Origin: an uncultured Alphaproteobacteria bacterium
GTDB lineage: Bacteria > Pseudomonadota > Alphaproteobacteria > Caulobacterales > Parvularculaceae
Direction: 5' to 3'
Length of the DNA stretch: 64,000 nt
NCBI GenBank assembly: GCA_902826095.1
Contig: CADEDN010000017.1
Location: 1-64,000 of the forward strand
This document shows, piece after piece, positions 1-16,875 of the stretch (the stretch's first letter is position 1; every line of letters begins with the position of its first letter). The position numbers and the translations under genes are program-made. The notes beneath the pieces are model-generated. The model saw only the letters and a list, made by a program, of their open reading frames with translations, made no database searches and was not told the origin of the DNA.

Positions 1-113
1 AACTTCTTCAAGGCGCAAAACTATGTTGCAGTTTAATTGCGCGAGGCTCTAGCGCGCCGCGCACGAAGGTGGAGACCGGTTTCGCGCGAAAAGGCGCGCC
101 AAATGAAGAGACT

Positions 114-153: not shown

Positions 154-262
154 GGCGTTTGACGCGGAAAAGCTGTCGCCCGCTTTCCTGAACTGTCACG
201 CGATCAATCAAGGCGCTTGCGCTCCCGCACGTCGATTGTCCGAAGACGGAGCATGCTCTGTT

Positions 263-285
263 CCTCTCCCTTGGTAAGGGAGAGG
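263..285. repeat. 10-bp stem hairpin
   Basis: CCTCTCCCTT (263-272) pairs with AAGGGAGAGG (276-285) around GGT. The following bases (GTTAGGGGAGGGA) belong to the same type of pyrimidine/purine repeat seen at 41834-41870. This is a common type of extragenic element in alphaproteobacteria. There is no U-tract. Confidence 0.55.
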
Positions 286-399
286 TTAGGGGAGGGATTG
301 GGGCTGTTGCAGCGGAGTCTTTCCAATCTCGCCAATCCCCTCCGGCGCTGCGCGCTGCGTCTCCTTTTCAAGGCAAGGGAAATCAGAGCGCCCCGCCCT

Positions 400-506
400 G
401 TCATCCCGGACAATCGCGCAGCGATTGATCCGGGACCCTGTGAAATTGAGGGCCCTTCAGCTGCGCGGGATCCCGGATAATTCGCTTCGCGAATTTCCGG
501 GAAGAC
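400..506. repeat. REP-like palindromic element, copy 1
   Basis: The element begins with GTCATCCCGGACAATCGCGC and ends with TTTCCGGGAAGAC. It contains internal GATCCGGGACC and GGGATCCCGGATAA blocks and TTCGCTTCGCGAA, so it folds into several hairpins. The same building blocks in the same order recur at 15408-15507, and a shorter related inverted repeat occurs at 16876-16987. Confidence 0.65.
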
Positions 507-541
507 AGGGGGTTGCGGGTCGCGTCGGGACGGCGAGGGAA

Positions 542-1369
542 TTACGTCCTCTCCACCAACCGCAAAAACTCTTCCGGCGTCGTCACTTTCTCAATATCCC
601 GCGCTGAAACCGTGACGCCCCAGGTCTTCGCGATCGCGTCGTAACGGGGCCTGCGCCAGTCGATCAGCCGCGCGAAGCCCCAGCGGATGAAATCGTCGGG
701 ATCGACTTCGCCTTCGCTGACGCCTTTGGCCTTCAAATAATCCGCCCAGATGCGTTTCAGGAACGCCTCATTGTAATACATCGGCTTCGGGTTCTTCGCG
801 AAGCGGTCTTTCAGCGCCTGCGCATGCGCGTCGTCGCCTTCGATACAGACGATCGTGCAAATCTCGGAGAGCGGCTTCAAAACGCGGTCCTCGCGGTCCT
901 CCGGATCGACGATCTCGCAGATCGAGCCGCCGGCGTCGCAGATGAAGCGGTCATAGAAGTAGATCGACTTCGCCTTTTCAATGAAAGCCTTTGTGTCGGC
1001 GAGCGCGGCGATCTCCGCGTCGCGGTGCAGGCGCTGGCGTCGGAGATATTCATCGAATGGAATGCCGCCTTGTTTCGGATCGCCCGGCTTGCCGAGAAAG
1101 GCCGACAGGGGCGCGAGATTGTCGAAGCTGATGTTCGATGAAATGCTGATCGAATCGGAGCGCAGCATGTCGCGAAGCCCCGGCGCCTTCATCGCCTCGC
1201 GCTTGAACTCGTCGACAATCGCCTCGCCGAGATAGCGCGTGCCGATGCGGTAATCGACGGAATAGTGGAACCAGTTCGCCTCGCGCCGGAGCATCGAGGC
1301 GATTCGCGTCTTGCCGACGCCCGACATCCCGATCAAGGCGATCGGCCTTGTCGCATCCGCTTTCGTCAT
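542..1369 (-). CDS. P-loop ATPase/kinase-like protein, function unknown
   Basis: This 275-aa soluble protein opens with a nucleotide-binding P-loop, GMSGVGKT, at residues 14-21, in the position used by shikimate-kinase-like small kinases. A YFYDRFICDAGGS segment near the middle may supply a Walker B-like acidic residue, but this is not certain. Homologues are usually named only ATPase, and I cannot name a substrate. Its ATG overlaps the stop of the serine-hydrolase gene by 4 nt (ATGA), so it is the last gene of a coupled operon that starts at 3442. No signal peptide or membrane segment is visible. Confidence 0.75.
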   Translation of the reverse strand: MTKADATRPIALIGMSGVGKTRIASMLRREANWFHYSVDYRIGTRYLGEAIVDEFKREAMKAPGLRDMLRSDSISISSNISFDNLAPLSAFLGKPGDPKQGGIPFDEYLRRQRLHRDAEIAALADTKAFIEKAKSIYFYDRFICDAGGSICEIVDPEDREDRVLKPLSEICTIVCIEGDDAHAQALKDRFAKNPKPMYYNEAFLKRIWADYLKAKGVSEGEVDPDDFIRWGFARLIDWRRPRYDAIAKTWGVTVSARDIEKVTTPEEFLRLVERT

Positions 1370-2490
1370 GCGCCCCGTCCTGCAACGCTCGCGTCAAGCG
1401 CCGTGAACAGCCGCACCGCGCGCGGGTCGCCGGCGAGCGAAGGCGACATTTTGTTCATCGCATAGGCGGCGGAGAGGCGGCGCGCCGGATCGATCATCGC
1501 CGCCGAGCCGCCAAAGCCCGCATGGCCGAAGGCCGTGCGGCTCGGCCCGAAATGCCCATTGGTGTTCGCCATCAGCCCGGCGGTCCATATGAGGCGAAAG
1601 GGCAGCACGAGATCCTCGCCGCTGATGCGCGGGGCGAGCGCGGCGGCGATCGCGTCTTCCGCAATATCGCGCCGGCCGTTCGTCGCGAGACCGCGATTGG
1701 CGAGCGGGTGCGTGATGGCGGCGAGCGCGCGCGCCGTCGCATGCATGTTGGAGGAGGGAATTTCCGCCGCCATCCACTGTTCGCGATTGACCTTTCCGGC
1801 CGCCGACCACGGTTTCAGAAACGCGATCTCGGTGAAGCGGCTATCCTTGCGATGCGTCGGCGCGGCGGGCGGTTTGGGCATAGTGGCGGCGCGCGCCATT
1901 TCCTCCGCGCGCATCCCGCAGTGAATATCGAGACCCTGCGCGCGCAACATCGCGCCGATCGTCCGGCCGGTCTTGCGCCGCAAAAGCTCGTTGATGATGA
2001 AGCCGCCGGTCTGCGGATGATAGCCGGCGGCCGAACCCGGCGGCCATAAAGGCGCCATCGCGGCGAGGCGCGCGACGATACGGTCCGGATAAATCCATTC
2101 GTCCGGCGGCGTCTCGTCTGGAAAGCCGCAGAGCCCCGCCTGATGCGAGAGGACCATCGCCAGCGTGATCTTGTCCTTCCCTTCGGCGCCGAATTCAGGC
2201 CAGTCCGCCGTGACGGCGCGATCATAAGCGAGCGCGCCGTCGCTGACCGCCGCCGCGACGAGCGCGGCCATCGCCGCCTTGCCGGCCGAATAGAGGCAGA
2301 CGAGCGTCTCCTCCGCCCACGGAATTGTCCTGTCGCGATCCGCCCAGCCGGCCCAGAGATCGGCGATCAGCGCGCCGCCCTCGAAGGCCGAAAAGCGCGC
2401 GCCAAGTTCGGCCCCCTCGCTGAAATTCGCGGCGAATGCGTCAAGCACCGCCGGCGGCGCGAAACCCTTGATGTCGGCGCCGCCGGTCAT
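1366..2490 (-). CDS. Serine hydrolase (beta-lactamase/family VIII esterase type)
   Basis: This 374-aa protein has the fold signatures of class C beta-lactamase-like esterases. The SxxK nucleophile motif is S-A-G-K at residues 68-71, and the second catalytic motif is probably Y158 in YHPQTGG. A GHAGFGGS segment in the C-terminal third resembles the third, KTG-like, box. These enzymes hydrolyse esters, amides or small beta-lactams; the substrate cannot be read from the sequence. No signal peptide is evident, so it is probably cytoplasmic. It overlaps both neighbours by 4 nt (lipoprotein upstream, P-loop protein downstream). Confidence 0.85.
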   Translation of the reverse strand: MTGGADIKGFAPPAVLDAFAANFSEGAELGARFSAFEGGALIADLWAGWADRDRTIPWAEETLVCLYSAGKAAMAALVAAAVSDGALAYDRAVTADWPEFGAEGKDKITLAMVLSHQAGLCGFPDETPPDEWIYPDRIVARLAAMAPLWPPGSAAGYHPQTGGFIINELLRRKTGRTIGAMLRAQGLDIHCGMRAEEMARAATMPKPPAAPTHRKDSRFTEIAFLKPWSAAGKVNREQWMAAEIPSSNMHATARALAAITHPLANRGLATNGRRDIAEDAIAAALAPRISGEDLVLPFRLIWTAGLMANTNGHFGPSRTAFGHAGFGGSAAMIDPARRLSAAYAMNKMSPSLAGDPRAVRLFTALDASVAGRGA

Positions 2491-2792
2491 GCGCCGTCTT
2501 GCCCGCGCGGGCAGCCGAGATTGGCGGCGATGAAGGCGCGGCGGGTCTTCACGTCGGCGCCGAGCACGCGGTCGCGCAAATCCTCGCGCCCGGACGACTT
2601 CTCGACGAGGCGCGCGGCTCTTTTCGCCGCGCGGTCATCGCCGATGCGGCCGGCGAGGCACTTGCTGCGCTCCGGCGACGCGCCCAGCCGCATCAGGCCG
2701 CTTTCAAGCCGCGACGACGCCGGCGCGTCGTCCGACGCGCAGCCGACGAGAGCGGCGCTGATCATCGACAGCATGAAAATCCTTCCCGTCAT
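2487..2792 (-). CDS. Small putative lipoprotein
   Basis: This is a 101-aa protein starting MTGRIF, followed by a hydrophobic stretch and the lipobox AALVGC, so a lipidated envelope protein is predicted. The rest is charged, with two further cysteines, and matches no family I know. I placed the start at 2792 because that ATG overlaps the stop of the upstream isomerase-like gene by 4 nt, as at every other junction of this operon. A longer upstream frame exists, but its extension would be arginine-rich and antecedent to the signal sequence. An internal ATG at 2774 is an alternative. Confidence 0.65.
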   Translation of the reverse strand: MTGRIFMLSMISAALVGCASDDAPASSRLESGLMRLGASPERSKCLAGRIGDDRAAKRAARLVEKSSGREDLRDRVLGADVKTRRAFIAANLGCPRGQDGA

Positions 2793-3442
2793 CGCGGCCG
2801 CTTGCGCAACGCTTTCTGGTCGAGCCGCCAGACGAGCGAGCTGAGGCGGTCCTGTCCGAAAAAGGGCTCGTCGTCGAGTACCATCAGCGGCACGCCCCAA
2901 TGCTGCGCCATTTGCGCCTCCTCATTGCGGGCGATGATCTCGGCGATGCGGGAAGCATTGTCGCCCGCAAAGGCGCGCAGCGCGTCAAGGTCGAGCCCCG
3001 CCTCGCGCGCGGCCTCCGCCATGGTCTTCTCCGCCTGCCAGTTCTCGACCCCGCCCCAGATGCGGCGCGACATGGCGCGCGCGAAGGCAAGGCCCGCATG
3101 CCGCGTTTCTTCCGCCGCGACGCCGAGCGCCATCAACGGCTTCATCAAGGGCTGTTCCGCCTCGACCTTGCCGGTCGCCATGTCCATGACGATCGGATCG
3201 GGACGCGGTAAGGCGAAAGGAACGCCGAGGCGCGCGCTCTCGCGCATGACGTCCTTCACGAGATAAGGCAGCCATTGCGGGCGATTGCGCTCGAAGAAGG
3301 TCGGCTCGCGCATGGCGAGCGGGCGGACGAAGCGGAAGTCGCAGGCGATTTCGTAATCGCGCGCGATCCCGGCGAGGCGGTCAATCGCAAGATAGGAATA
3401 GGGGCTGCGAAAAGACCAGTAGATGTCGAGTTTGGCCGTCAT
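2789..3442 (-). CDS. 2-hydroxychromene-2-carboxylate isomerase family (DsbA-like) protein
   Basis: This 217-aa thioredoxin-fold protein belongs to the HCCA isomerase / GST-kappa group. The N-terminal motif WSFRSPYSYLA contains the Ser (residue 13) that replaces the DsbA cysteine and binds glutathione in this family. The C-terminal motif VPLMVLDDEPFFGQDRL is also typical. Family members isomerise chromene carboxylates in naphthalene breakdown, but most chromosomal copies have unknown glutathione-dependent roles. It is the first gene of the 3442-542 operon and is divergent from the amidase gene at 3529. Confidence 0.85.
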   Translation of the reverse strand: MTAKLDIYWSFRSPYSYLAIDRLAGIARDYEIACDFRFVRPLAMREPTFFERNRPQWLPYLVKDVMRESARLGVPFALPRPDPIVMDMATGKVEAEQPLMKPLMALGVAAEETRHAGLAFARAMSRRIWGGVENWQAEKTMAEAAREAGLDLDALRAFAGDNASRIAEIIARNEEAQMAQHWGVPLMVLDDEPFFGQDRLSSLVWRLDQKALRKRPR

Positions 3443-3528
3443 GCGCGCCCTTTCGTTCTTTCTTGAATCTTCGCGGCTCCGCCCCTAAGCGTCAACGCCA
3501 ATCTTCATGCCGCCTGAGGGAGCCCGAA

Positions 3529-4380
3529 ATGTCCCGGAAATTGCGCGTCGCCGCCCTGCAGGCCGCCTATGGCGATGATCTGAAGGCGAATATCAAAACC
3601 GTCGAAAAGCTCATTCGCGCCGCGGCCAAGGACGGCGCCGAGGTTATCTTGCCGTCGGAGCTCTTTCAGGGCCGCTATTTCTGCAAGCGGGAGGAGACGC
3701 GCTGGTTCGCCGAGGCGCATCCGTATAAGGAGCATCCGGTCGTCGTCGCGCTCAGCCCCCTCGCGAGGGAGCTCGGCGTCGTTCTTCCCCTGTCCATTTT
3801 CGAGAAAGCCGGACAGGAATATTTCAACAGCCTCGTCATGGTTGACGCCGACGGAAAGATAATGGGGCTCTACCGCAAGAGCCATATTCCGGACGGGCCC
3901 GGCTATGAGGAGAAATTCTATTTCAAGCCCGGCGACACCGGCTTCAAGGTCTGGCCGACGAAATTCGGGCGGCTCGGCGTCGGCATTTGCTGGGACCAGT
4001 GGTTCCCGGAAGCCGCGCGCGCAATGATGCTCGAGGGCGCGGAGATACTCTTTTATCCGACGGCGATCGGGTCCGAGCCTGAAAATCCCGGACTCGACAC
4101 GCAAGCCCGCTGGCGGCGCGCGATGATCGGGCATTCAGTGTCGAACGTCGTCCCGGTCGTCGCCGCCAACCGCGTTGGCGACGAGGACGGGCAGATCTTC
4201 TACGGCTCCTCCTTCATCGCCAATGAAGGCGGCGACTTCCTCGCCGAAATGAACCGGACGGACGAGGGCTTCATCGCCGCGACGTTCGATCTTGATCAGA
4301 TCGCGGAGCTGCGCGCCGGCTGGGGCTTTTTCCGCGACCGAAGGCCGGAGCTTTACGGCGCGCTCACCGGCAAAAATTAA
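3529..4380 (+). CDS. aguB: N-carbamoylputrescine amidase
   Basis: This 283-aa nitrilase-superfamily enzyme hydrolyses N-carbamoylputrescine to putrescine, CO2 and ammonia in the agmatine route of polyamine synthesis. The Glu-Lys-Cys triad is visible: E44 in ILPSELFQGRYF, K118 in YRKSHIP, and C154 in GVGICWDQWFPE. SELFQGRYFCKREE and CWDQWFPEAAR are characteristic of this subfamily. An earlier in-frame start exists, but GAGGG precedes the ATG at 3529 and MSRKLRVAALQ is the conserved N-terminus. The agmatine deiminase partner gene is not adjacent. Confidence 0.92.
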   Translation: MSRKLRVAALQAAYGDDLKANIKTVEKLIRAAAKDGAEVILPSELFQGRYFCKREETRWFAEAHPYKEHPVVVALSPLARELGVVLPLSIFEKAGQEYFNSLVMVDADGKIMGLYRKSHIPDGPGYEEKFYFKPGDTGFKVWPTKFGRLGVGICWDQWFPEAARAMMLEGAEILFYPTAIGSEPENPGLDTQARWRRAMIGHSVSNVVPVVAANRVGDEDGQIFYGSSFIANEGGDFLAEMNRTDEGFIAATFDLDQIAELRAGWGFFRDRRPELYGALTGKN

Positions 4381-4471
4381 GAGTTTCGGGCCAGAGGGGT
4401 TCTCCCCGCTGGCGCAAATCATGCTTTGCTGCTCCCCGAATTGGTGTTTGAGGGCAGGGCAGGGTTAACGC

Positions 4472-5737
4472 ATGAGCAAGCCGCAAAGAACAACCGCTGA
4501 AATTGTCATCCTGAATGAAGCGAACGCTGCGGACGACGCGGCGATGCGCGACGCGGTCGCCGCCGCGGAGACGGTCGGCGGCAAATTGGCGGCGGCGCGC
4601 AAGGCGAAGGGCCTGACGCTTCAAGAAGTTCACGAAGGCACGAAGGTCAAGCTCAACCATCTCGGCGCGATCGAGCTCGGCGATCAAAGCGCGCTGCCGG
4701 CCGTGCCGTTCGCCGCCGGTTTCGTCAAAGCCTATGCGCAGTTTCTCGGGCTCGACGCCAACGACTATTCCGCCGCCTACAAGGCCGAATTCGGCGGCGC
4801 GGCGGCGGCGGCGAAAACGCCAGCGCCTCAAATCGAGACAGCCGCTGAAGCGCCAGCCATCGCGCGCGCGCCGGCGGCGCGCAATCCTTTCGTTGCAACG
4901 CCGAAGACCGAGGCTGCGCCGGCGATCTTTCCGCCCGCGCCGGCAGAGCCCGCGCTGAGCGCGCCAGCGCCCGCCGCGGCCGTCGCCGACAAGGCGTCAT
5001 CGCCTGACCGCTTCGTCGCCTATTTCGGCGTCGGGGCGGCGTGCCTTTGCGTCGCCTGGATCGCCGGCAATGCGCTCCTGTCAAACCAGAATGCGCCGGC
5101 GCCGACCGTCACCTTCACCGCCGTTGCGCCAGCCGCCGAACCGCCGGCCGCGCCCGCCATCGTCGCCCAAGCGCCAGCCGCGTCGCCATCGACCGCCGAG
5201 ATCGCCGCCGCGGAAGCGCCGCCCGTCGCCGAGAATGACCTCGCTGCAACCGCCCTCATCGAGCCGCCGAAGGTGAAGCCGACGCCCAAGCCGGTTCGCG
5301 CGCCGTCGCCGGACATGAAGGAAATCATCATCGCCGACGCGCCGCCGGTCGTCAGCAAGCCTGGCGCGGCCGCCGCCGGCGCCGCGCCGATCGTCAGTGA
5401 ACAGATTGATCCCTTCGCGCTGTCGGCGCCGGCCGCCGACAGCGCGTCGCCGACGCTTGATGCGACGGTTGTTCCGGCGAAGCTGACGCGCGCGGCGTCC
5501 CCGAAATATCCCGAGCGCTGCGCGGCGGGCTCGCGGAAAGCGGAAGGCGTCAGCGTCGCTTTCGACGTGACGGTCGAAGGGCGCCCGACCAACGCCAATG
5601 TCGCCGACTCATCCAACAGCTGCTTCAATGACGCGGCGAAAGACACTGTCTATCGCATGCGCTTCTCGCCGCGCATGATCGACGGCCAGGCGCAAATGGA
5701 GTTCGGCAAGCGCGTGACGGTGCAGTTCACGCGCTGA
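4472..5737 (+). CDS. RodZ-like HTH protein fused to a TonB C-terminal domain
   Basis: This 421-aa protein has an unusual domain order. Residues about 35-100 form a RodZ/HTH_25-type helix-turn-helix (GGKLAAARKAKGLTLQEV, then a PFAAGFVKAYAQFLGLD segment). Residues 182-203 form one membrane span. A long Pro/Ala-rich linker follows, and residues 338-421 are a TonB-like C-terminal domain with SPKYPERC, FDVTVEGRPTN and a second cysteine (C350 and C384). RodZ anchors MreB at the membrane; TonB C-termini contact outer-membrane receptors. The predicted topology is cytoplasmic HTH and periplasmic TonB domain. The stop overlaps the convergent sirtuin gene by 11 nt. Function is inferred only from domains. 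Confidence 0.8.
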   Translation: MSKPQRTTAEIVILNEANAADDAAMRDAVAAAETVGGKLAAARKAKGLTLQEVHEGTKVKLNHLGAIELGDQSALPAVPFAAGFVKAYAQFLGLDANDYSAAYKAEFGGAAAAAKTPAPQIETAAEAPAIARAPAARNPFVATPKTEAAPAIFPPAPAEPALSAPAPAAAVADKASSPDRFVAYFGVGAACLCVAWIAGNALLSNQNAPAPTVTFTAVAPAAEPPAAPAIVAQAPAASPSTAEIAAAEAPPVAENDLAATALIEPPKVKPTPKPVRAPSPDMKEIIIADAPPVVSKPGAAAAGAAPIVSEQIDPFALSAPAADSASPTLDATVVPAKLTRAASPKYPERCAAGSRKAEGVSVAFDVTVEGRPTNANVADSSNSCFNDAAKDTVYRMRFSPRMIDGQAQMEFGKRVTVQFTR

Positions 5738-6440
5738 GCCCGGCCAGAAATTCATCAACCCACGCCGGCCCGATTTCGCTTGCGCGCCCATAGCGCGCGT
5801 CCGTGAACGCCCAGGCGTTTTCCGACGGCTCAAGATTAAGCTCGACGCGGGGGACGCCGAAGCCCCGCGCTTCGCCGACAAATCCCGCGGCGGGATAGAC
5901 GCTCCCCGAAGTGCCGATCGACACGAAAAGATCCGCCGCCCTGATCGCTACGGCGATTTCGTCGAGGAACCTCGGAATCTCGCCGAACCACACGACGTCG
6001 GGCCGCATCATATGGCCGGCGCCGCAGTCGGGGCAACGCGTCTCGACGGAGAGATCGTTTGTCCACGGACAAATGAAATCGCAGGCGCCGCAGCGCGCGC
6101 TCATCAATTCGCCATGCATGTGCAAGACCCGGCGCGAGCCGGCGCGCTCGTGCAGATTGTCGACATTCTGCGTGACAAGGGTCAGCCGGTCGCCAAGCGT
6201 TGCTTCAAGCCGCGCCAGCGCCGCATGCGCCGCGTTCGGCTTGGCCGCAAGGACTGAGGCGCGCCGCGCATTATAGAATTGATGGACGAGCGCCGGATCA
6301 GCGGCGAAGCCTTCCGGCGTCGCCACGTCTCGCCAGTCATAAGTCGACCAGACGCCGTCCGGATCGCGAAAGGTCGAAACGCCGGAATCAGCTGAGATCC
6401 CGGCGCCCGTCAGAATGACGACCCGCGTCGGCGGCCTCAC
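5727..6440 (-). CDS. cobB: NAD-dependent protein deacylase, sirtuin class III
   Basis: This 237-aa Sir2 protein removes acyl groups from lysines using NAD+. Visible motifs are GAGISADSGVSTFRD (NAD site), TQNVDNLHERAGS, catalytic His in HMHGE, and a CxxC...CxxC zinc site (CGAC, CPDC). FYNARR carries the Tyr and Arg that in CobB/SIRT5 bind succinyl or malonyl lysine, so desuccinylase activity is likely. The start is a GTG at 6440 that overlaps the TGA of the upstream DUF1993 gene (GTGA). A longer in-frame reading back to 6989 would be out of phase with that gene and is not the real N-terminus. Confidence 0.9.
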   Translation of the reverse strand: MRPPTRVVILTGAGISADSGVSTFRDPDGVWSTYDWRDVATPEGFAADPALVHQFYNARRASVLAAKPNAAHAALARLEATLGDRLTLVTQNVDNLHERAGSRRVLHMHGELMSARCGACDFICPWTNDLSVETRCPDCGAGHMMRPDVVWFGEIPRFLDEIAVAIRAADLFVSIGTSGSVYPAAGFVGEARGFGVPRVELNLEPSENAWAFTDARYGRASEIGPAWVDEFLAGLSA

Positions 6441-6940
6441 CGCGTCATGAAATCGGCCTTGCCGAGCGGCACGCCGGCGTTGCGGAGATTGAGATAGGTC
6501 GCCGTCACATGAAAATAGACGTTCGGCAGCATGAAGTTCTGCAGGAATTGCTGGCGCTTCAGCGTCATCGATGAATCGCGCATCGGCACTGTGATGTCCT
6601 TGTCGGGATCGGCGTCGATCTTCGCCTTGTCGAGATCCTTGATGTGCGCCTGCGCTTTCGCCGTCCGCTCCTTCAATTGCGCGAATGTCGTTTCGGTGTC
6701 CGGGAAAGACGGCGGCTCGGCGCCGGAAAGACGCGTCATGCCGCGCACCGCGATATCGCAGGCGATCTGCACCTGCCGCGCCATGGTGAACATGTCGGGC
6801 GCGAGGCGCCAGCTTGTGTAGACAGTCTCGTCGACGCCGGCGGTCTTGGCGTGCGCGGCCGCCTTGTCGAGCATGATGCGGAGCGCGGCGAACATCTGGT
6901 CGAGGCTGGCGAAGGCGATCGAGGAAGTTGTGTATTGCAT
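6437..6940 (-). CDS. DUF1993 domain protein
   Basis: This 167-aa soluble protein matches the DUF1993 family (SWRLAPDMFTMARQVQIACD, then NFMLPNVYFHVTATYLNLRN). The family is probably a DinB-like helical bundle of unknown function. I chose the ATG at 6940 (MQYTTSSIAF) because AAAGGAC lies just upstream; two earlier in-frame codons give an atypical extension. It is translationally coupled to the sirtuin gene through a GTGA overlap. Confidence 0.85.
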   Translation of the reverse strand: MQYTTSSIAFASLDQMFAALRIMLDKAAAHAKTAGVDETVYTSWRLAPDMFTMARQVQIACDIAVRGMTRLSGAEPPSFPDTETTFAQLKERTAKAQAHIKDLDKAKIDADPDKDITVPMRDSSMTLKRQQFLQNFMLPNVYFHVTATYLNLRNAGVPLGKADFMTR

Positions 6941-7027
6941 AAAGGTCCTTTGCGAGACGGAGGCCGCAACATAGCCCTTCCGCCGACATTGCAACAGCGA
7001 TCGCTCTTCACATAGAAGTCATGCGCG

Positions 7028-7516
7028 ATGAAACGGATACTCTTCGTCTGTCTCGGCAATATCTGTCGTTCGCCAGCGGCGGAAGCCGTCCTTCGCGCTA
7101 AAGCCGCCGCGCGCGGGCTCGGCCTTCACGTCGCCTCGGCGGGAACCGGCGGCTGGCATCAAGGCGGCGGGGCCGATCCCCGCATGGTCCGCGCGGCGGC
7201 GCGGCGCGGTTACGATCTTTCCGCGCACCGCGCGCGGCAGGTCGCTTTCTCCGATTTCTATGAGTTCGACCTGCTGCTCGCGATGGACAACCGCAACCGC
7301 GCCGACCTACTCGACATCGCCCCGCCCAATCGCGATTGCGACATTCGATTATTTCTCGAATTCGCAGGCGGCGAGACGCGCGAAACGCCGGACCCCTATT
7401 ACGGCGGCGCGGAAGGATTTGAACGCGTGCTCGATTTCATCGAGGCTGGCGCAGAGGGATTTCTTTCCTATATGTCCGGCCAATCGTCGACGCCGCAAAA
7501 TCAGAGCCGGCCGTAA
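7028..7516 (+). CDS. Low-molecular-weight protein-tyrosine phosphatase
   Basis: This is a 162-aa LMW-PTP. The P-loop CLGNICRSP at residues 8-16 holds the nucleophile C8 and R14, and the general acid is D122 in DPYYGG. Family members remove phosphate from tyrosine, for example on BY-kinases of polysaccharide export, and also arsenate or other phosphoesters. A degenerate BY-kinase homologue lies at 30162, but the genes are far apart. The 3' end overlaps the convergent oxygenase gene by 16 nt. A 47-bp stretch of this gene (7353-7399) is repeated exactly at 8399-8445, where a second copy of the 3' end survives. Confidence 0.93.
   Translation: MKRILFVCLGNICRSPAAEAVLRAKAAARGLGLHVASAGTGGWHQGGGADPRMVRAAARRGYDLSAHRARQVAFSDFYEFDLLLAMDNRNRADLLDIAPPNRDCDIRLFLEFAGGETRETPDPYYGGAEGFERVLDFIEAGAEGFLSYMSGQSSTPQNQSRP
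7353..7399 (+). repeat. 47-bp perfect direct repeat, copy 1
   Basis: This stretch inside the phosphatase gene is identical base for base to 8399-8445. The spacing of 1,046 bp places the 2OG oxygenase gene between the copies. Homology continues to the right of both copies at lower identity, and almost none is seen to the left. The pattern suits integration by recombination at this site. Confidence 0.9.
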
Positions 7517-8283
7517 AATGTCATGCGCGCCGATTCGGAAAGGCTGACGCCGGGCTTTGAATTATAGGCGAGAACCGCCAGCATGCGCGTCCGACCGCCT
7601 TCGACGGGCGTCACCCGATGCATCGAATTGCGCCCGCGAAACAGCACGAGCGCGCCCGCGCCCATCGACAGCATTGCAGGCGCAACTTCGCCGTCGAGAA
7701 TCCGCCGCGCAAGATCGTCGTTCTCAACGCCCGCGTCAGCGTCCCGCACATCCTTCACATATTCGAACACGCCGCCGCGTTCCGGCGGCTGCACCATCAG
7801 CGTGATGGCGAACGACGAATTGTCGAAATGCCAGCCGAGCTCCTGACCTGCGTCGGCGAAATGAAGATTGACGGCCGACAAAGCGTCAGCATACTCATGC
7901 AGTTCCTTTTCGCCGAGCACGACGCACAAGAACTTGCAAAAATCCCCGGACCTATACAACCGCTTCAGCGGCGACTCATCGGGAATTTGGTCGGTTGTGA
8001 TGCAGCCCTTTGACGAGGCGACTTCATGGTTGCGCACATGGTCGTCCGGGAAATCTGGATTGCGCGGCGTGAGGTAAATGTTGTGGGCGTTCGACGTATA
8101 ATAGGCGCGATGCTTGTTGCTGTCGCCTTCCCGCCTGACCGCATCGACGCAGTCCGGCCGCAAAAAGCCAGGCATCACGAGCGCGCCAGTCTCGTCGAGC
8201 GTTCGTTTGCAGGCGCGGCGAAAATCTTCGTCCGCCAACGGATGGGCGTCAAGATCGACGAGGGACGCAAGGACATTCTGCAT
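7501..8283 (-). CDS. 2OG-Fe(II) dioxygenase
   Basis: This 260-aa enzyme of the 2-oxoglutarate/Fe(II) oxygenase superfamily shows the facial triad as H152-x-D154 (GWHFDNSSFAITL) and distal H222 (MHRVTPVEGGRTR), with R231 or R233 as the 2OG-binding residue. The retained Asp argues for hydroxylation and against a radical halogenase, where this position is Gly or Ala. The substrate is unknown; no biosynthetic neighbours are present. The ATG at 8283 follows GAGAAAGG; a start 26 codons earlier is possible. The gene is flanked by the 47-bp direct repeat, so it may have been acquired as a single-gene insert. Base composition is not visibly different. Confidence 0.8.
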   Translation of the reverse strand: MQNVLASLVDLDAHPLADEDFRRACKRTLDETGALVMPGFLRPDCVDAVRREGDSNKHRAYYTSNAHNIYLTPRNPDFPDDHVRNHEVASSKGCITTDQIPDESPLKRLYRSGDFCKFLCVVLGEKELHEYADALSAVNLHFADAGQELGWHFDNSSFAITLMVQPPERGGVFEYVKDVRDADAGVENDDLARRILDGEVAPAMLSMGAGALVLFRGRNSMHRVTPVEGGRTRMLAVLAYNSKPGVSLSESARMTFYGRL

Positions 8284-8394
8284 GGCGGGCGCGCCTTTCT
8301 CAATGGATCTTTGCGCGCAATCTAACAAAGCGCCCGATTCCCGGCAACCTGACCGCATCAATCGTCAACCCGCCGTCAACGGCGCCACCTGCGC

Positions 8395-8541
8395 CTACTT
8401 CTCGAATTCGCAGGCGGCGAGACGCGCGAAACGCCGGACCCCTATGACAGCGGTCCAGAGGGTTTTGAGCATGCGCTCAATCTCATTGAGACTGGCGCGG
8501 CGGGGATTCTCGCGCGTCTCGACCGGAAAAGCGCGCGATGA
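8395..8541 (+). pseudogene. 3'-end remnant of the LMW phosphatase gene
   Basis: Read in frame, this segment continues the phosphatase from residue 108: L-L-L-E-F-A-G-G-E-T-R-E-T-P-D-P-Y, then a diverged ending (DSGPEGFEHALNLIETG and further) to a TGA at 8539-8541. The first part is identical in DNA to the intact gene and the rest is clearly homologous but divergent. No N-terminal half or start exists, so it cannot make a phosphatase. Its 3' part overlaps the tail of the convergent membrane-protein gene at 8483. Confidence 0.85.
8399..8445 (+). repeat. 47-bp perfect direct repeat, copy 2
   Basis: This copy is identical to 7353-7399 and lies at the left edge of the phosphatase remnant. The base before it (8398) already differs from the intact gene, while two further codons to the left remain similar. 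It marks the right border of the 1,046-bp unit that carries the oxygenase gene. Confidence 0.9.
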
Positions 8542-9406
8542 TGTGATGGGGTTGAAGCCAGTACCGGCTTGCGGCGAATGCAGTGGGGCTGTTTTCTGTG
8601 AGGACGGCTGCGTAGATCGTCGCGAGGTCTTCGCACGTATCCGGGAACGCCTGCTTTTGCGCCATCAATTCAGCCAGTCGATCGCGTCCGAGCGCGCGCT
8701 CGCCGAATGCGATCGCCTCATCGCGCGTGCCCTTTGATACTGGTCTTGTCTTGTCCGGCATAGTCCGGAACGCGAGGTCTGCGGCGCCGTAGAATTCGCT
8801 TGCGGCGTTCGAATTCAACAGGCCTTCGCCCTGCATGAACGCGGCGCACGCCTGCGGATCGACGTCCTTGAGTTTTCTGAATACGCTCTCGTAGCCCTTG
8901 GCGAGAAAATAGAGAACGTTATCGCCGGTCTCGGGCAGTTCGGCGTTCATCCGGTCGACAAAGACGCCGAGCGCCGCGCGCGCCGCCAATTTCGGATTAT
9001 TCACGGACTCGGACTCGATGAATTTTTCGACATAGGCGTCCGTGAGCGACATATCATAAGCGGTCGCGTGGTCATGAAGCATGACCGCTCGCGGGTCATC
9101 TGAGATCAGTTCACGCGCCATCACGTCGATGACGCGGGACACCTTCGTCGCTTCGATCTTATCGGATCGCTGTTCAATCACGGCGGTTCGCGCGAATTGG
9201 CGCAACTTGTCCATTTCACCAGCGAGGCGGAGCTTTTCATAACAGTCGAGGAAGAAAAGGAGAATTGCCGCAATGACCGCCAGCGCCGCCGAACCCGTTC
9301 GCCACAAGCCGCCGCGGGGCGTGAGCCCGATCAGAATGACAACGCCGATGAGGAGGAGTTTCGGCCAGCCGACCACGACCGCGAGATGAATGAATTGTCC
9401 GAGCAC
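8483..9406 (-). CDS. Hypothetical membrane protein
   Basis: This 307-aa protein has two membrane spans near the N-terminus (about residues 5-25 and 33-52) followed by a long soluble, mostly helical, region. I do not recognise the family. I chose the GTG at 9406 because GAGGGG lies 7 nt upstream; an ATG at 9481 would add 25 residues without a convincing ribosome-binding site. The last 20 or so codons are antisense to the phosphatase remnant, so the present C-terminus (SGRDARESPPR) may come from an ancestral convergent overlap. It is divergent from the lipoprotein gene at 9537. Confidence 0.6.
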   Translation of the reverse strand: MLGQFIHLAVVVGWPKLLLIGVVILIGLTPRGGLWRTGSAALAVIAAILLFFLDCYEKLRLAGEMDKLRQFARTAVIEQRSDKIEATKVSRVIDVMARELISDDPRAVMLHDHATAYDMSLTDAYVEKFIESESVNNPKLAARAALGVFVDRMNAELPETGDNVLYFLAKGYESVFRKLKDVDPQACAAFMQGEGLLNSNAASEFYGAADLAFRTMPDKTRPVSKGTRDEAIAFGERALGRDRLAELMAQKQAFPDTCEDLATIYAAVLTENSPTAFAASRYWLQPHHIIARFSGRDARESPPRQSQ

Positions 9407-9536
9407 GGCGTCACCCCTCAAAGATAATGAAGTATTGCGGGCGTTGATTGAGAAATTGCAAAAGACGTGCGCCGTTTTCACGGCTTGGTAGCCAACTCGC
9501 GGCTAGAAGCGGTTTGACCAGCAGGGAGCGGCGAAG

Positions 9537-10661
9537 ATGGCCCTGAAAATGCGCGGGAATGTCGCCTGGATCGCTGTCGCCTTCCTTGCGGCGGCGGCCG
9601 CATCCTGCGGCGGGAAGCCGCCGTCGGCAGGCGACCGGGAGCGCCGGCTGCCGGAAATCCAGCCGAACAGCCTTCATATGGAGCTGCTGTCGACGCCAGG
9701 CCGGGAAATCTCCCTCGACGCGCCCGAGATCGTCTTTCGGAACGCTCTCGGCACGCATGTCACCCAAAGATTCTACGAAGCCGATTTCGCCGAGCTTGAA
9801 CGACTTGCGGCGATCTACCGCGGCGGGATGCTCACCGGCTCGGGCATCGAGAAGCTCGGGCCGTTCTACTGGGCGTTCATTCAGGACATGATCGTTGATC
9901 GCGACGGCGTCGACAAGAAGGCGCCCGATTTGATTTCTGCATGGGCGAACCGTTACCCGATGTCGCCGACGCCCTATATCGCCACCGCCTTCATGTACGA
10001 TGAGGTCGCACGTCGGATGGAAAGCAACGGCGACGCGCCTGCGGGACGAGAACGCAAACAGCGATTCCGCGATGAAGCGCTGAGAAGTCTGACGACTCAT
10101 TGGGACCTCGTGAGAGCCGACCCTTACGCTCACGGCATGAAGATGCGGCTGATTTCCGCCGGCGCGGCCTCAGACGAAACCTGGGAAGAGGCTTTTGAAG
10201 CGGCCAAGCGCGAACATTCGCGCCGCTTCGTCATCTATTTCGAAGCGGTCAATTCCGCGCCGGGGATGAGCGACTCGCCGCTGAGCGCGGGGATCGCCGC
10301 TGAGCGGATCGCGCGCGCGCTCGCCGACACCATGGGCGAGGACGGTGACGCCGGCTACGCCCGCGTCTGGTGGTCGGCCTATAGTCGTAGTTACATCAAG
10401 TATCTGTTCGAAAACGGCTGGGTGAACTGGCCGCGAATCCGGAGCGGCTTCTACAAGATTATCGAAGACTATCCCGAGCCCTGGAATCTCAACAATTTCG
10501 CAAGGTTCAGCTGCATCGTCGGCGACGTGACGACGCTCCGCGCTCTGGCGCCGGCTGTGCGGCGGCACCCGATCGACGATGTGTGGACCTACGAACATCG
10601 CGAATATTGCTTCCTCTTCGCCGACGCGACGGCTGAAGAGATTCCGCTGGAACCGCCGTAA
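9537..10661 (+). CDS. Hypothetical secreted or lipid-anchored protein
   Basis: This 374-aa protein begins with a positively charged N-terminus, a hydrophobic stretch and a weak lipobox ending at C24 (AAASCGG). The mature part is helical and rich in aromatic residues; a PEPWNLNNFARFSC segment near residue 318 recalls proteins with repeat-like helical domains of unknown function. I do not assign a family. A GGGAG sequence precedes the ATG. It stands alone between the divergent membrane-protein gene and the convergent thpR. Confidence 0.65.
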   Translation: MALKMRGNVAWIAVAFLAAAAASCGGKPPSAGDRERRLPEIQPNSLHMELLSTPGREISLDAPEIVFRNALGTHVTQRFYEADFAELERLAAIYRGGMLTGSGIEKLGPFYWAFIQDMIVDRDGVDKKAPDLISAWANRYPMSPTPYIATAFMYDEVARRMESNGDAPAGRERKQRFRDEALRSLTTHWDLVRADPYAHGMKMRLISAGAASDETWEEAFEAAKREHSRRFVIYFEAVNSAPGMSDSPLSAGIAAERIARALADTMGEDGDAGYARVWWSAYSRSYIKYLFENGWVNWPRIRSGFYKIIEDYPEPWNLNNFARFSCIVGDVTTLRALAPAVRRHPIDDVWTYEHREYCFLFADATAEEIPLEPP

Positions 10662-10732
10662 GCGGTCATTGGCGCCTCGCCGGCGTCGAGCCTTGGGATC
10701 TGTCCGTCTTCGTGTGATTGATGCGGCGCCGT

Positions 10733-11296
10733 TCAGCCTGCGGTGGCGATCGCATGGGTTGCGTCGCTCAATCCATAGCTAGCGACGACTTCGTAATGCG
10801 CCGCCTCAGAACCCAAATGCGACTCGTAGAGATGGAACTCTCTGACCGCGAAAGGCTTGGCGGAAAATAATCCGTTCACGGCGCAAAAGCCGGCCGCGGC
10901 TTCCGGCGCGACGCCGCTGAGGTAGGCGAGCGTCACATGCGGCGTGAATTTCCGCTTGTCGAGCGCGAAGCCGGACCGGGTCAGCGCAACGTCGACTTTC
11001 GAATGCAGGCGCGTGAGCGCCGGATTGCTCTCCGCCCCGACCCACAGCGCGCGGGGCTTCCTGTCGCCGAAAAAGCCGCAGCCCTTGAGCCGCAGCTCAA
11101 AACCCGGGGCTGAAAGCGAGCCGAGCGCCGTCGCAATCTCGTTAAGGCCGTGGCGGTCGACCTCGCCGATGAACGCGAGCGTCAGGTGGAAGTTTTCATC
11201 CGGAAGCCAGCGCGCGCCGCGCATGCCGGTCTGCAGGTCAAACAGCGCGTCGATGACGTCTTCGGGGAGTGAAATCGCGACAAACAGGCGATGCAT
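10733..11296 (-). CDS. thpR: RNA 2',3'-cyclic phosphodiesterase
   Basis: This 187-aa protein of the 2H phosphoesterase superfamily has the expected length. The two HxTL motifs are H37 (HLTLAFIG) and H120 (HVTLAYLS), and the N-terminus RLFVAISLPEDV is typical of ThpR. It hydrolyses 2',3'-cyclic phosphate ends of RNA. The gene follows a DUF2147 protein gene on the same strand after a 20-nt gap and may be co-transcribed with it. Confidence 0.92.
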   Translation of the reverse strand: MHRLFVAISLPEDVIDALFDLQTGMRGARWLPDENFHLTLAFIGEVDRHGLNEIATALGSLSAPGFELRLKGCGFFGDRKPRALWVGAESNPALTRLHSKVDVALTRSGFALDKRKFTPHVTLAYLSGVAPEAAAGFCAVNGLFSAKPFAVREFHLYESHLGSEAAHYEVVASYGLSDATHAIATAG

Positions 11297-11316
11297 GGCT
11301 TCGGCTCCTCACGCAA

Positions 11317-11796
11317 CTAGCGCTCGGCGTCGATTTCGGCCTGGACGGGCGTCCAGACCATTTCGCGCGGGCAAATGAATCCAAGGCACCCGGTCGCGGC
11401 GAGCGTTCCGTCGGCGTTTTCGTCAATCTTCAATCCGTACCAGATCAATTTTCCCTTGATCAGCGATTCGTCGATCGCGGCGATCTTGCCGTCGCGATGC
11501 CGGCCGTCGCCTTTCGATTTCAGATCCCTGATGACGACGAAGCCGACGACAGGGTCGCCGCCCGGCAGGGCGGTCCGGCCGGAAGGCCCCTTCGGTTCGA
11601 TCGCCTCAAGGACGGTCGCGCAGGAAAGCGCCGGATCGTCCGAACAGGGATGAAATGCGATATTGAGCGACGCGCCGCCGGCTTCCTTTTCAAGCGACGG
11701 GCCGGTGTTGAAGGCGCCGAAAAGCGTCTCGCCGCGGGCGGGCGCGGCAGGGGCGAGGGCCGCGACGGCGCAAAGCAGGACCGCTGAAGTTCTCAT
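11317..11796 (-). CDS. DUF2147 secreted protein
   Basis: This 159-aa protein has a signal peptide (hydrophobic core, cleavage likely after APARGE) and a DUF2147-type beta-rich domain with paired cysteines (HPCSDDPALSC, CLGFICPREMVW). The function of the family is unknown; members are periplasmic. I placed the start at the ATG at 11796, which GAGG precedes. A GTG seven codons upstream is also in frame. Longer upstream reading is antisense to the SDR gene region and arginine-rich. Confidence 0.75.
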   Translation of the reverse strand: MRTSAVLLCAVAALAPAAPARGETLFGAFNTGPSLEKEAGGASLNIAFHPCSDDPALSCATVLEAIEPKGPSGRTALPGGDPVVGFVVIRDLKSKGDGRHRDGKIAAIDESLIKGKLIWYGLKIDENADGTLAATGCLGFICPREMVWTPVQAEIDAER

Positions 11797-11894
11797 CCAT
11801 CGCCTCGTCTTCACGTCAGCGCCGCCGCAGAGTATCCGTCTGCGGGCGGCGCGGCGCAATACGCCGTCGTCGGGCGAAGGATAGGCTCGACATC

Positions 11895-12767
11895 GTGAAA
11901 AAGATATTATTGCTCGGCTTCGGCTATGTCGCGCGCCGCTTCGCGCGCGGCCTTGGCGCGGGCGGGTGGCGCGTCGCCGGCACGGCGCGCAGCACGGCGA
12001 AGGCGGCCGCACTCGCCGCTGAGGGGCTCGAGCCGATCCTCTGGGACGAAAGCGGTCTCGCCGCCGACGCCTTTGACGGGACCTCGGCGATCCTCGTCTC
12101 AACGCCGCCGGACGAAGACGGTTGTCCGGCCTGCGCCGCGGCCGAATTCCCTTTGATTCAGGACGCGCGGAATTTCTCCTGGATCGGCTATCTCTCGTCG
12201 AACGGCGTTTACGGCGATCATGGCGGCGCGATTGTCGACGAGAATTCGCCGCTGCTTGCGTCCTCGCCGCGCGCGCTCAATCGCCTGTGCGCGGAAGACC
12301 AATGGCGAAATCTTGCGCGCGCGCGCCGTTTGCCGCTCGTCATCTTTCGGCTTCCGGGAATCTATGGGCCGGGCCGCTCCGCGCTCGACACGGTGCGCGA
12401 GGGTCGCGCGCAGCGGATCTTCAAGGAAGGACAAATGTTCAGCCGCGCGCATGTCGACGACATCGCCGCGGCTTTGCAGAAGAGCCTCCAACATCCGGAC
12501 GCCGGTTCCTTGTTCAATATCGCGGACGATGAACCGGCGCCGCCGCAGGACGTCATCGCCTATGCGTGCGAGCTCCTCAATGTCGCGCCGCCGCCGCTTA
12601 TTCGATTTGAGGAAGCGCAATTGTCGGACATGGCGCGGAGTTTTTACGCCGACAACAAGCGTGTTTCGAACGCGCTGATGAAGGAGCGATTGTCGGTCGC
12701 GCTGAAGTTTCCGACCTTTCGCGAAGGGTTGCGCGCGATCCTTGCTGAAGAGCGGTCGCGGGCGTGA
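11895..12767 (+). CDS. NAD(P)-dependent SDR/epimerase-like protein (YeeZ type)
   Basis: This 290-aa protein has an N-terminal Rossmann motif GFGYVARRFA (residues 8-17) and the SSNGVYGDHGG segment of extended SDRs. The usual catalytic YxxxK is not present: the corresponding stretch reads ALNRLCAEDQW. The YeeZ-like group often shows such changes, so it may bind a nucleotide without classical epimerase chemistry. The C-terminal FYADNKRVSN motif is also typical. The start is GTG at 11895. Confidence 0.85.
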   Translation: MKKILLLGFGYVARRFARGLGAGGWRVAGTARSTAKAAALAAEGLEPILWDESGLAADAFDGTSAILVSTPPDEDGCPACAAAEFPLIQDARNFSWIGYLSSNGVYGDHGGAIVDENSPLLASSPRALNRLCAEDQWRNLARARRLPLVIFRLPGIYGPGRSALDTVREGRAQRIFKEGQMFSRAHVDDIAAALQKSLQHPDAGSLFNIADDEPAPPQDVIAYACELLNVAPPPLIRFEEAQLSDMARSFYADNKRVSNALMKERLSVALKFPTFREGLRAILAEERSRA

Positions 12768-12794
12768 CCTGTCGTGATACGCGCCCTGCGGCGC

Positions 12795-13235
12795 CTACCA
12801 ATCATCTTCGCCGCGGATCGCTTCATCGGCGCGCCAGGCGTTGATGCGATCGACGACGCATTTCTTCGCGTCGCCATAGCTTGAGGTGAAAACCAGCGCC
12901 TCGCCGACGCTGACGCAATTGTCGCCGCCTTCGCCCTCGATTTTGTCAGCGAAGATCATGGTGTTGGTGTCGCAGCCGCTCTTGAAATGAAAGAACGCCC
13001 GCCCGCCATCGGCGGTCTTCGTGATCAGCACATTGTCGCGCGAATCATAGGTTTCCTGTTCGGCGGGCGAGGCGATGCAGGCTTCGCCGAGCGCGTCGCC
13101 CATGTTCGCGTCCTCATTCTCATATTCGAAAACCGGCGCCGGCGGCGGCGCTTCCGCCGGCTTTTTTTTCGGTTCCCGCGCATAAACAGACGTCGTCGCC
13201 ACGATCGCGGCGACCGCCAGCAAAGTCCGTTTCAT
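12795..13235 (-). CDS. DUF6491-like secreted protein 1
   Basis: This 146-aa protein has a signal peptide (cleavage near SVYA-RE) and a Pro/Lys-rich linker. The domain of about 100 residues contains the pattern GC...NCVSVGEALVF...KKCVVDRINAW. The spacing of the three C-terminal cysteines and the VGE/PGD-x-LxF block match the paralogue at 13345, so the two form a tandem pair. DUF6491 proteins have no known function. A periplasmic location is inferred. Confidence 0.65.
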   Translation of the reverse strand: MKRTLLAVAAIVATTSVYAREPKKKPAEAPPPAPVFEYENEDANMGDALGEACIASPAEQETYDSRDNVLITKTADGGRAFFHFKSGCDTNTMIFADKIEGEGGDNCVSVGEALVFTSSYGDAKKCVVDRINAWRADEAIRGEDDW

Positions 13236-13344
13236 TTCAGCAATGCCCTCTTGACGCCCCGCCGCGGCGGCGCATTCCCCTTGCGCACGGGCGGGCGCGC
13301 GGAATTTACGCCGACGCCGGCGGCGCCATCAAGCGGCGAACGCG

Positions 13345-13803
13345 TTAATCTTCGGAGGGTTGGTCGGCGTCTTGGCCTTCTTCGGCTTCGGCCGCGTCCG
13401 GATCCCATTTGTAGATTTCCGAAATCGCGCAGCGCGTCGTGTTCGGGAATGAAAAATCGCCAAAGGCCGAGCGGCTGAAGATCAGATAATCGCCCGGCGT
13501 GACGCAGCCGCCGGCCGGCCGGCTGTCGATCGCGACCGCTTCGGCCCATTTAAGCTCGCTGTAATTGCAGGCGCCGATCAGCGTCGCCTTGTACCAGTCA
13601 TTGACGCCCTTCTCCAGCAGCACGGCGTCGTCCTCGCCCTTGATGGTCTTGAAATTGTTGATGTTGCGGCCAAAGCAGATGCGGTCGACCTGCTCGCCTT
13701 CGCGTGCGTCCGCCGCGGTTTCCTCTTCCGCGAAAGCGGCCGCGCCGGCCGTCATAACGCCGCAGGAAAGCGCGGCCAGAAACGCCAAACCGGACCTTGT
13801 CAT
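13345..13803 (-). CDS. DUF6491-like secreted protein 2
   Basis: This 152-aa protein has a clean signal peptide (cleavage near AFA-EE). Its core contains ICFGRNINNFKTIKGEDDAV, which resembles the DUF6491 start, then AC...GCVTPGDYLIFS...RCAISEIYKWD. The tail is acidic. It is paralogous to the gene at 12795 and lies 110 nt upstream of it on the same strand. Its start is divergent from ahcY across a 187-nt gap that contains the palindrome at 13900-13919. Confidence 0.7.
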   Translation of the reverse strand: MTRSGLAFLAALSCGVMTAGAAAFAEEETAADAREGEQVDRICFGRNINNFKTIKGEDDAVLLEKGVNDWYKATLIGACNYSELKWAEAVAIDSRPAGGCVTPGDYLIFSRSAFGDFSFPNTTRCAISEIYKWDPDAAEAEEGQDADQPSED

Positions 13804-13899
13804 GGATCACCTGTCATTTGCGCCCTCGAGCCCCGGGGCGAGGCCGATTTCGGCCTCAATTATGGACGGAACAAGGCAGACCGTCCTCCCGAGGGTGCG

Positions 13900-13919
13900 A
13901 TATAAAGAAATCTTTATAT
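13900..13919. promoter_or_regulatory. Palindromic operator upstream of ahcY
   Basis: ATATAAAGA (13900-13908) and TCTTTATAT (13911-13919) form a perfect 9-bp inverted repeat around AA. It is strikingly AT-rich for this genome and lies 71 nt before the ahcY start. ArsR-family regulators of S-adenosylhomocysteine/methionine metabolism (SahR type) bind palindromes of this general type upstream of ahcY in Proteobacteria. The link to SahR is inference. Confidence 0.6.
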
Positions 13920-13990
13920 GTCCCTTGGCGGAATGAAGGCTGATTGCTATAAGCCCGCCCGACCCATCAACCGGACAAGGAACGACCGTC

Positions 13991-15397
13991 ATGAACGCGC
14001 CCGCCCATCACGACTATTTCGTCAAGGACATGAAGCTCGCCGACTGGGGCCGAACCGAGATCGAGATCGCTGAGACCGAAATGCCGGGCCTGATGGCGAC
14101 GCGGGCGGAATTCGGCAAGTCGCAGCCCCTGAAAGGCGCGCGCATCGCCGGCTCGCTGCACATGACGATCCAGACGGCCGTGCTGATCGAAACCCTGCAG
14201 CATCTTGGCGCGAATGTGCGCTGGGCCTCGTGCAACATCTATTCGACGCAGGACCACGCCGCCGCGGCGATCGCGGCTGCCGGCACGCCGGTCTTCGCGT
14301 TCAAGGGCGAGAGCCTTGAGGAATACTGGGACCTTTGCGACAAGATCTTCGATTTCCCGAATGGCGAAACCGCCAACATGATCCTCGACGACGGCGGCGA
14401 CGCGACCTTGCTCGTCCTCCTCGGCGCCGATGCGGAAAAAGATCCCTCGCTGCTGGCCAAACCCGTAAATGACGAGGAGCGCGCGCTCTATGACACGATC
14501 AAGCGCCGCCTCGCCAAGCAGCCGGGTTTTTACTCAAAGACCAAAGCCAGCATCAAAGGCGTCACCGAAGAAACGACGACCGGCGTTCTGAGGCTCTATC
14601 AGCGCCAGAAGAAGGGGACGCTCCCGTTCCCGGCGATCAATGTCAACGACTCAGTGACGAAGTCGAAATTCGACAACAAATATGGCTGCAAGGAATCGCT
14701 CGTCGACGGCATTCGCCGCGGCACTGACACGATGATGGCGGGGAAAGTCGCCGTCGTCTGCGGTTACGGCGATGTCGGCAAAGGCTCGGCTGCCTCGCTT
14801 AAAGGCGCCGGCGCGCGCGTCCTCGTGACCGAGATCGACCCGATCTGCGCGCTGCAGGCGGCGATGGACGGCTTTGAAGTCGTGACGATGGAGGAAGCCG
14901 CGCCAAGGGCCGACATCGTCATCACCGCGACCGGCAACAAGGACGTTTTGACCGTCGATCACATGCGCGCGCTCAAGGACATGGCGATCGTCGGCAATAT
15001 CGGCCATTTCGACAATGAGATTCAGGTCGACGGCCTCAAGAACTTCAAATGGAAGAACATCAAGGATCAGGTCGACATGATCCACTTCCCCGACGGCAAG
15101 CGGATGATCCTGTTGAGCCAGGGGCGCCTCCTCAATCTCGGCAACGCCACCGGCCATCCCTCCTTCGTGATGTCGGCGTCCTTCACCAACCAGACGCTGG
15201 CGCAGATCGAGCTTTGGACCAAGGGCGATCAGTACAAGAACGAAGTCTATGTGCTGCCCAAACACCTCGACGAGAAAGTCGCGGCGCTCCACCTCGCCAA
15301 GGTCGGGGCCTCCCTCACCAGGCTATCGCAAGAGCAGGCCGCCTATATCGGCGTCGACGTCAAAGGTCCGTACAAGGCGGACCACTATCGGTATTGA
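13991..15397 (+). CDS. ahcY: Adenosylhomocysteinase
   Basis: This full-length 468-aa enzyme reversibly hydrolyses S-adenosylhomocysteine to adenosine and homocysteine, keeping the methylation cycle running. Seen are the substrate-binding [16 protein letters not shown], the NAD-binding [10 protein letters not shown], the [13 protein letters not shown] segment and the conserved C-terminus ending YKADHYRY. The alphaproteobacterial/eukaryote-like insertion is present ([10 protein letters not shown] and following). AAGGA precedes the ATG. The AT-rich palindrome at 13900-13919 probably controls it. A REP-like element follows the gene. Confidence 0.97.
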
Positions 15398-15407
15398 TGC
15401 AATTGTC

Positions 15408-16868: not shown

Positions 16869-16875
16869 ACCGAAT

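Follow-up and report, generated by a model that had tools for sequence, protein, structure and literature searches.

The question raised by this locus is how a single enzyme gene came to lie between an intact LMW phosphatase gene (PTP) and a second, headless copy of the 3' end of the same gene. The window, i.e., the 64-kb stretch of DNA that was analysed, contains in order PTP, an oxygenase gene, the PTP remnant, two hypothetical genes and a LigT-type gene. Comparisons were made across 62 genomes of the family, in which G000 denotes the window genome and G001, G003, G004 and so on denote sampled relatives; G001 belongs to the same genus as the window genome and G003 is a sister species. The features on which the argument depends are as follows.

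7028-7516, forward strand: PTP, a hybrid gene with a G003-like 5' part and a G001-like 3' end (Pfam LMWPc; mosaic test)
7353-7399, forward strand: left copy of the 47-bp repeat, within PTP (exact match to 8399-8445)
7400-7516, forward strand: new PTP 3' end, closest to that of G001 (DNA identity; informative sites 11:4)
7501-8283, reverse strand: Fe(II)/2-oxoglutarate oxygenase gene, HalD family, HxD motif (Pfam HalD; alignment with solved lysine hydroxylases)
8284-8364, no strand assigned: spacer from the oxygenase gene to the LigT stub (homology with the spacer of G001, 84 bp)
8365-8394, reverse strand: probable LigT 3' stub, nine codons and a stop (same place and stop as in G001)
8395-8398, no strand assigned: junction between the putative incoming block and the PTP remnant (break in the LigT frame; exact repeat starts at 8399)
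8399-8445, forward strand: right copy of the 47-bp repeat (exact match to the left copy)
8446-8541, forward strand: putative native PTP 3' end, now a headless remnant (derived bases in common with G003; C-terminal ending)
8483-9481, reverse strand: hypothetical gene, left member of a putative older two-gene insert (in comparison with G017 and G019, homology ends at residue 311 of 332)
9537-10661, forward strand: hypothetical gene, right member of the two-gene insert (divergent neighbour of the 8483 homologue in G017 and G019)
10733-11296, reverse strand: intact gene for a LigT-type RNA 2',3'-cyclic phosphodiesterase, predicted ancestral convergent partner of PTP (TIGR02258, 153.7 bits; family synteny)

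Bases 7353-7399 and 8399-8445, with an offset of 1046, were identical at 47 of 47 positions, as claimed in a preliminary description of the locus, and formed the longest exact repeat of the window. Apart from it, exact repeats of 24 bp or longer were represented in the window by just one inverted pair of 31 bp, at 16876 and 16957. Both 47-bp copies were read in the same PTP frame, the left one within an intact gene of 162 codons (Pfam LMWPc, 134.8 bits) and the right one within a headless copy that was recovered independently by a protein search (8386-8532, residues 105-153, 61% identity, E=9e-14). The earlier account of an intact phosphatase gene followed by a second 3' end was thus borne out, and its example of divergence to the right of the repeat (PYYGGAEGF versus PYDSGPEGF) was also correct. 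In that direction, 19 of 63 sites differed between the PTP copies (7400-7462), and the probability of zero differences in the first 47 bases, assuming an even spread, was 6e-6, which indicates that the boundary is real rather than a product of the decay of a simple duplicate. Among the sampled relatives compared, a headless PTP 3' end was seen in the window genome alone. No hairpin beyond those of shuffled sequences was found in the 47-bp repeat or in the 52-bp repeat of G013 described below.

In 24 relatives PTP and the LigT-type gene were convergent with overlapping stops, the overlap being 25 bp in most, while the two stops of G003 were 32 bp apart; together these genomes are read from gene order as 25 empty sites. 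In G001 the oxygenase gene was found between PTP and LigT. The expectation that an oxygenase-bearing relative should carry PTP directly beside the oxygenase gene, with an ending like the new 3' end of the window, was therefore realised in G001. The accompanying expectation of empty sites held in the 25 relatives noted above, but with LigT rather than gene 8483 as the partner of PTP, and none of the sampled relatives had an empty site with PTP convergent on gene 8483. The recipient state PTP-8483-9537-LigT lacking the oxygenase gene was likewise absent from the sampled relatives, which counts against the explanation preferred below. A rearranged form of the locus was noted in G004 (L035 3245-5470, G004:C26), where a RodZ-like gene lay between LigT and PTP and neither Sir2 nor DUF1993 was detected next to PTP. 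Direct repeats above the level of shuffled sequences were not detected at the PTP/LigT junctions of G001 and G004.

The PTP gene of the window is a mosaic. At positions distinguishing G001 from G003, the 5' part was G003-like at 42 and G001-like at 26, whereas the new 3' end was G001-like at 11 and G003-like at 4 (15 informative sites in a short segment) and the remnant was G003-like at 10 and G001-like at 4 (14 informative sites, also in a short segment). DNA identity of the new 3' end over aligned codons was 0.78 to G001 and 0.69 to G003. A change point fell in the interval from about 7306 to 7345 (best p=0.00034, permutation p=0.0025), and the left crossover was only coarsely placed, since several of the nearby G001-like sites are changes private to G003. 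When bases were polarised with outgroups, the derived bases of the remnant included 6 in common with G003 and 0 with G001, those of the new end 6 with G001 and 4 with G003, and those of the first 278 PTP bases 8 with G001 and 22 with G003. The C-terminal ending of the remnant, ILARLDRKSAR*, was comparable to that of the PTP of G003, FLARFDKSGR*.

In a species tree built from proteins encoded in a different 20-kb part of the window, G000 and G003 were joined with 100% support and G001 was placed with G004 and G008; at 2649 common protein sites, G000 matched G003 at 1992 and G001 at 1840. With G000 and G003 together and G001 elsewhere in the tree, neither the distribution of the oxygenase gene nor the new PTP end agrees with the species tree. 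LigT was strongly G003-like (91:45), in keeping with the genome background. On the left side of PTP, neither Sir2 nor DUF1993 showed a preference for G003, and this counts against the preferred explanation.

Between the oxygenase gene and the remnant, bases 8284-8394 aligned with the oxygenase-LigT spacer and the LigT end of G001 (z=9 relative to shuffled sequences). The spacer measured 81 bp in the window and 84 bp in G001, and the frame that followed, AQVAPLTAG* in the window and AQESRLSAG* in G001, occupied the same place and ended at the same stop. Bases 8365-8394 are thus probably the tail of a LigT gene, nine codons with the stop, a grade given because the stub is short; the alignment score of 8356-8394 alone was reached by 3 of 2000 shuffles. 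The LigT frame is interrupted at 8395-8397 and gives way to the phosphatase copy, with the exact repeat running from 8399. Bases 8390-8398, where microhomology of a few bases would be looked for, partly fitted both LigT and PTP, and the exact sequence of the donor lies outside the sample. Bases 8395 and 8398, just to the left of the repeat, differed from the left copy, which is a further point against the preferred explanation. The block as a whole, judged by its likeness to G001, probably consists of a PTP 3' end, the oxygenase gene, the spacer and a LigT stub in the order of G001, ending inside LigT.

The oxygenase gene was present in 2 of the 62 family genomes, G000 and G001, the two proteins being 86% identical. 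Homologues in public genomes were taken from the best 80 of 433 confirmed loci. Among these best 80, the next relative was 71% identical, relatives of 56-71% identity were scattered over Proteobacteria, and direct repeats flanking the gene were found in none of the 80 other loci; a LysR-type gene was beside the oxygenase gene in 16 of 79 loci from the same best 80 of 433, with no other fixed neighbour. In the comparison with G001 at fourfold sites, the oxygenase gene gave a value of 0.64 and ordinary genes values of 0.57-0.66. Being as distant from G001 as ordinary genes are, it points to a relative of G001 rather than G001 itself as the donor. A close donor would lie outside the sample, and vertical inheritance of the gene with losses may also be envisaged; both points count against the explanation preferred below.

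The oxygenase gene is a genuine one, given its 86% identical homologue in G001 and a score of 59 bits against Pfam HalD (cut-off 26), which places the predicted protein in the HalD/BesD family of 2-oxoglutarate halogenases and lysine hydroxylases. Its GWHxD and MHR motifs aligned with those of solved lysine hydroxylases. The protein differs from the halogenases in having HxD for HxG, the metal motif being HFD, aligned with HWD of the solved lysine hydroxylases, and in scoring far below the NCBIfam BesD equivalog cut-off (20.7 versus 450 bits). An HxG metal motif marks halogenases, and HxD in this superfamily goes with hydroxylation. Our best guess from these motifs is that the substrate would be a free amino acid. 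A search for defence-system membership of the oxygenase gene and of the 8483/9537 pair gave nothing notable, just a general 2OG match.

The two hypothetical genes to the right of the remnant had no Pfam or NCBIfam match, and gene 8483 was in no other sampled genome of the genus. A divergent pair of neighbours related to 8483 and 9537 (25-36% identity) was also noted in G017 and G019, at unrelated places, and the pair has the look of an accessory module of two genes. The homologous part of the 8483 protein came to an end a few bases past the stop of the native PTP, the last codons of the gene running antisense through the PTP remnant. By this comparison the pair would be an accessory insert of its own, located immediately after the PTP stop.

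These results are probably best explained by insertion of a fragment with the G001 arrangement into the PTP gene of a G003-like recipient through one homologous and one non-homologous joint. The fragment, comprising a PTP 3' end, the oxygenase gene and a LigT end, would have come from a relative with the G001 arrangement, a direction of transfer suggested by the mosaic gene and the empty relatives. Its PTP end would have recombined homologously with the recipient PTP, within or just to the left of the 47-bp tract, to leave a hybrid gene that is still complete and presumably encodes a functional phosphatase. The other end, broken inside the 3' end of LigT, would have been joined, without extended homology, to the recipient PTP about 50 bp upstream of the crossover. 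The expected outcome is that found in the window, i.e., an oxygenase gene between 47-bp direct repeats, accompanied by a LigT stub of nine codons and by a native PTP end that lacks the head of the gene. Recombination inside the phosphatase gene, as first proposed, is thus retained at its core together with the mosaic PTP and the G003-like remnant, except that the block would also have carried a LigT stub.

Two single-crossover routes would give the same gene order, namely homology-facilitated illegitimate recombination of a linear piece, or circularisation of the fragment followed by one crossover. The linear route would duplicate the recipient DNA between joint and crossover and so produce exact identity over 47 bp with sharp edges on both sides, whereas the circle route would require prior identity or conversion over the tract. 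The small circle or linear fragment of the preliminary description accordingly fits the structure, with the circle as just one of the two routes. As to how the DNA might have entered, a genome search found one ComEC gene and did not detect Ku. Natural transformation is thus possible, with the proviso that ComEC is common also in bacteria not known as competent.

A transfer in the reverse direction would make the order PTP-oxygenase-LigT native and would bring in a PTP 3' end, genes 8483 and 9537 and LigT from another relative, with an illegitimate joint at the native LigT stub on the left and a homologous joint in LigT on the right. This is unlikely, although it agrees with an oxygenase divergence from G001 equal to that of ordinary genes, with the foreignness of the 8483/9537 pair in the genus and with the G003-likeness of LigT (91:45). 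The last is equally a property of the genome background, and the reverse direction leaves unexplained both the exact 47-bp identity beside 30% divergence and the switch from G003-like to G001-like sequence inside PTP; it also requires loss of the oxygenase gene in G003 and G004 with both gene ends cleanly repaired. Tandem duplication of a unit running from the PTP 3' end through the oxygenase gene to the LigT end, with subsequent loss of the second oxygenase gene and fast decay of the second PTP end, would give the observed repeat layout, and a remnant free of selection would be expected to decay. Yet the differences were absent from the 47 bp and dense beyond it (p=6e-6), the remnant was G003-like rather than a decayed copy of the new end, and a second oxygenase gene was not found in the genome. 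Duplication with decay is rejected on the distribution of differences, and we regard it as very improbable overall.

A 47-bp tract that is an att site or target-site duplication would imply site-specific or transpositional insertion, a reading suggested by the single gene between direct repeats and by a junction in G013 at which a TIR-type gene lies between perfect 52-bp repeats. It is nonetheless highly unlikely, as the one gene between the repeats is the oxygenase gene, with neither integrase nor transposase, no tRNA gene occurs in positions 1-20000 of the window, and a transposon would be expected to leave a short target duplication rather than one of 47 bp. Moreover, the 47-bp and 52-bp repeats differ in sequence and in position (inside PTP versus the LigT/PTP overlap), the oxygenase gene of G001 has no such repeat, and the insert bears the ends of both neighbouring genes, which points to homologous transfer. 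The absence of an integrase in the insert and of a tRNA gene in 1-20000 also removes the analogy, drawn in the preliminary description, to 3'-end repair at tRNA islands. Finally, two strain variants might have been joined in assembly through the 47-bp identity, the repeat length being equal to an assembly k-mer size. Such an artefact is hardly credible, since a chimera formed through 47 bp cannot create the junction of LigT stub and PTP at 8394/8399, which lacks a long overlap, and the estimated contamination of the assembly was 0.07% at a completeness of 98.67%.

Occupation of the same junction was noted in another genus. In G013 (L042 869-2434, G013:C67), a different single gene of 346 aa, which matched the PADLOC TIR effector model (E=2e-23) and had a weak SLOG-type Pfam match, was found at the PTP/LigT junction. 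It was flanked by a perfect 52-bp direct repeat by which both overlapping genes get complete ends. The site has thus been used at least twice. An insert that spares two genes with overlapping ends must duplicate the overlap, so selection alone may explain the G013 repeat. A scan for repeats covered about 845 kb of G000 and 600 kb of G013, in which most other repeats of similar size appeared to be intergenic interspersed elements or tandem paralogues; being mostly of different kinds, these indicate that gene-end duplications are uncommon. At a separate locus of G013 (L243 990-4405, G013:C17), a glycosyltransferase 3' end was doubled around 3.3 kb of other genes, by eye glycan-type genes and an FkbM-like methyltransferase gene, with a 49-bp exact tract inside the diverged copy. 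Exact tracts of 38-67 bp were shared by a pair of roughly 230-bp stretches in G000 (L270 12325-19315, G000:C4); the stretches, separated by 6759 bp, ran into the start of a coding frame and are possibly an old tandem duplication. It is conceivable but quite improbable that in this family convergent PTP/LigT ends are a recurrent landing site which single genes, the oxygenase gene in G000 and the TIR-type gene in G013, reach through an unrecognised process that is adapted to convergent gene ends, works without an integrase and leaves about 50 bp in direct duplicate. A literature search on single-gene hotspots returned nothing relevant, and a broader one gave the meningococcal case described below as its sole precedent.

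The significance of insertion through one homologous and one non-homologous joint is that the locus would be a clean fossil of the gain of an enzyme gene independent of any mobile element, at a place where both convergent neighbours need to stay whole. With the donor-like, the empty and the inserted state each represented among the genomes, species can be compared for how long the homology was, where the crossover fell and how much was duplicated; since the PTP/LigT junction was used more than once, a preference for it as a landing site can also be put to the test.

The features expected of single-crossover or illegitimate insertion were present, i.e., a mosaic gene at the homologous joint, a non-homologous joint at 8394/8399 and both empty and filled relatives. 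Homology-facilitated illegitimate recombination in competent bacteria and in E. coli conjugation, where both fates of linear DNA have been described (PMC3240628), similarly combines a homologous and a non-homologous joint on a linear fragment with gain of foreign DNA. Those cases come from laboratory selections, whereas the process is read here from a natural locus at which circularisation and one crossover would look alike. The earlier remark that such capture is unusual in a protein gene is contradicted by published precedents with a truncated remnant (PMC5349592, PMC5361080). In the meningococcal capsule island, the incoming galE1 is complete and the truncated native galE2 clusters with the alleles of empty strains (PMC5349592). 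This agrees with the window in the insertion within a protein gene, the complete incoming copy and the truncated native remnant, but the island spans 24 kb with a large invertible inverted repeat, as opposed to one gene with a 47-bp direct repeat. Arrays formed by displacement of T6SS effector/immunity modules in Vibrio cholerae, also explained by homology-facilitated illegitimate recombination (PMC5361080), share with the window an upstream homology anchor, entry of a new module and old 3' pieces pushed downstream; whole and possibly useful immunity genes are left there, a headless gene end here. The logic of the insertion is therefore already published, and the present case, as read from its sequence, is a smaller one that is unusually complete in its evidence rather than one of a new kind.
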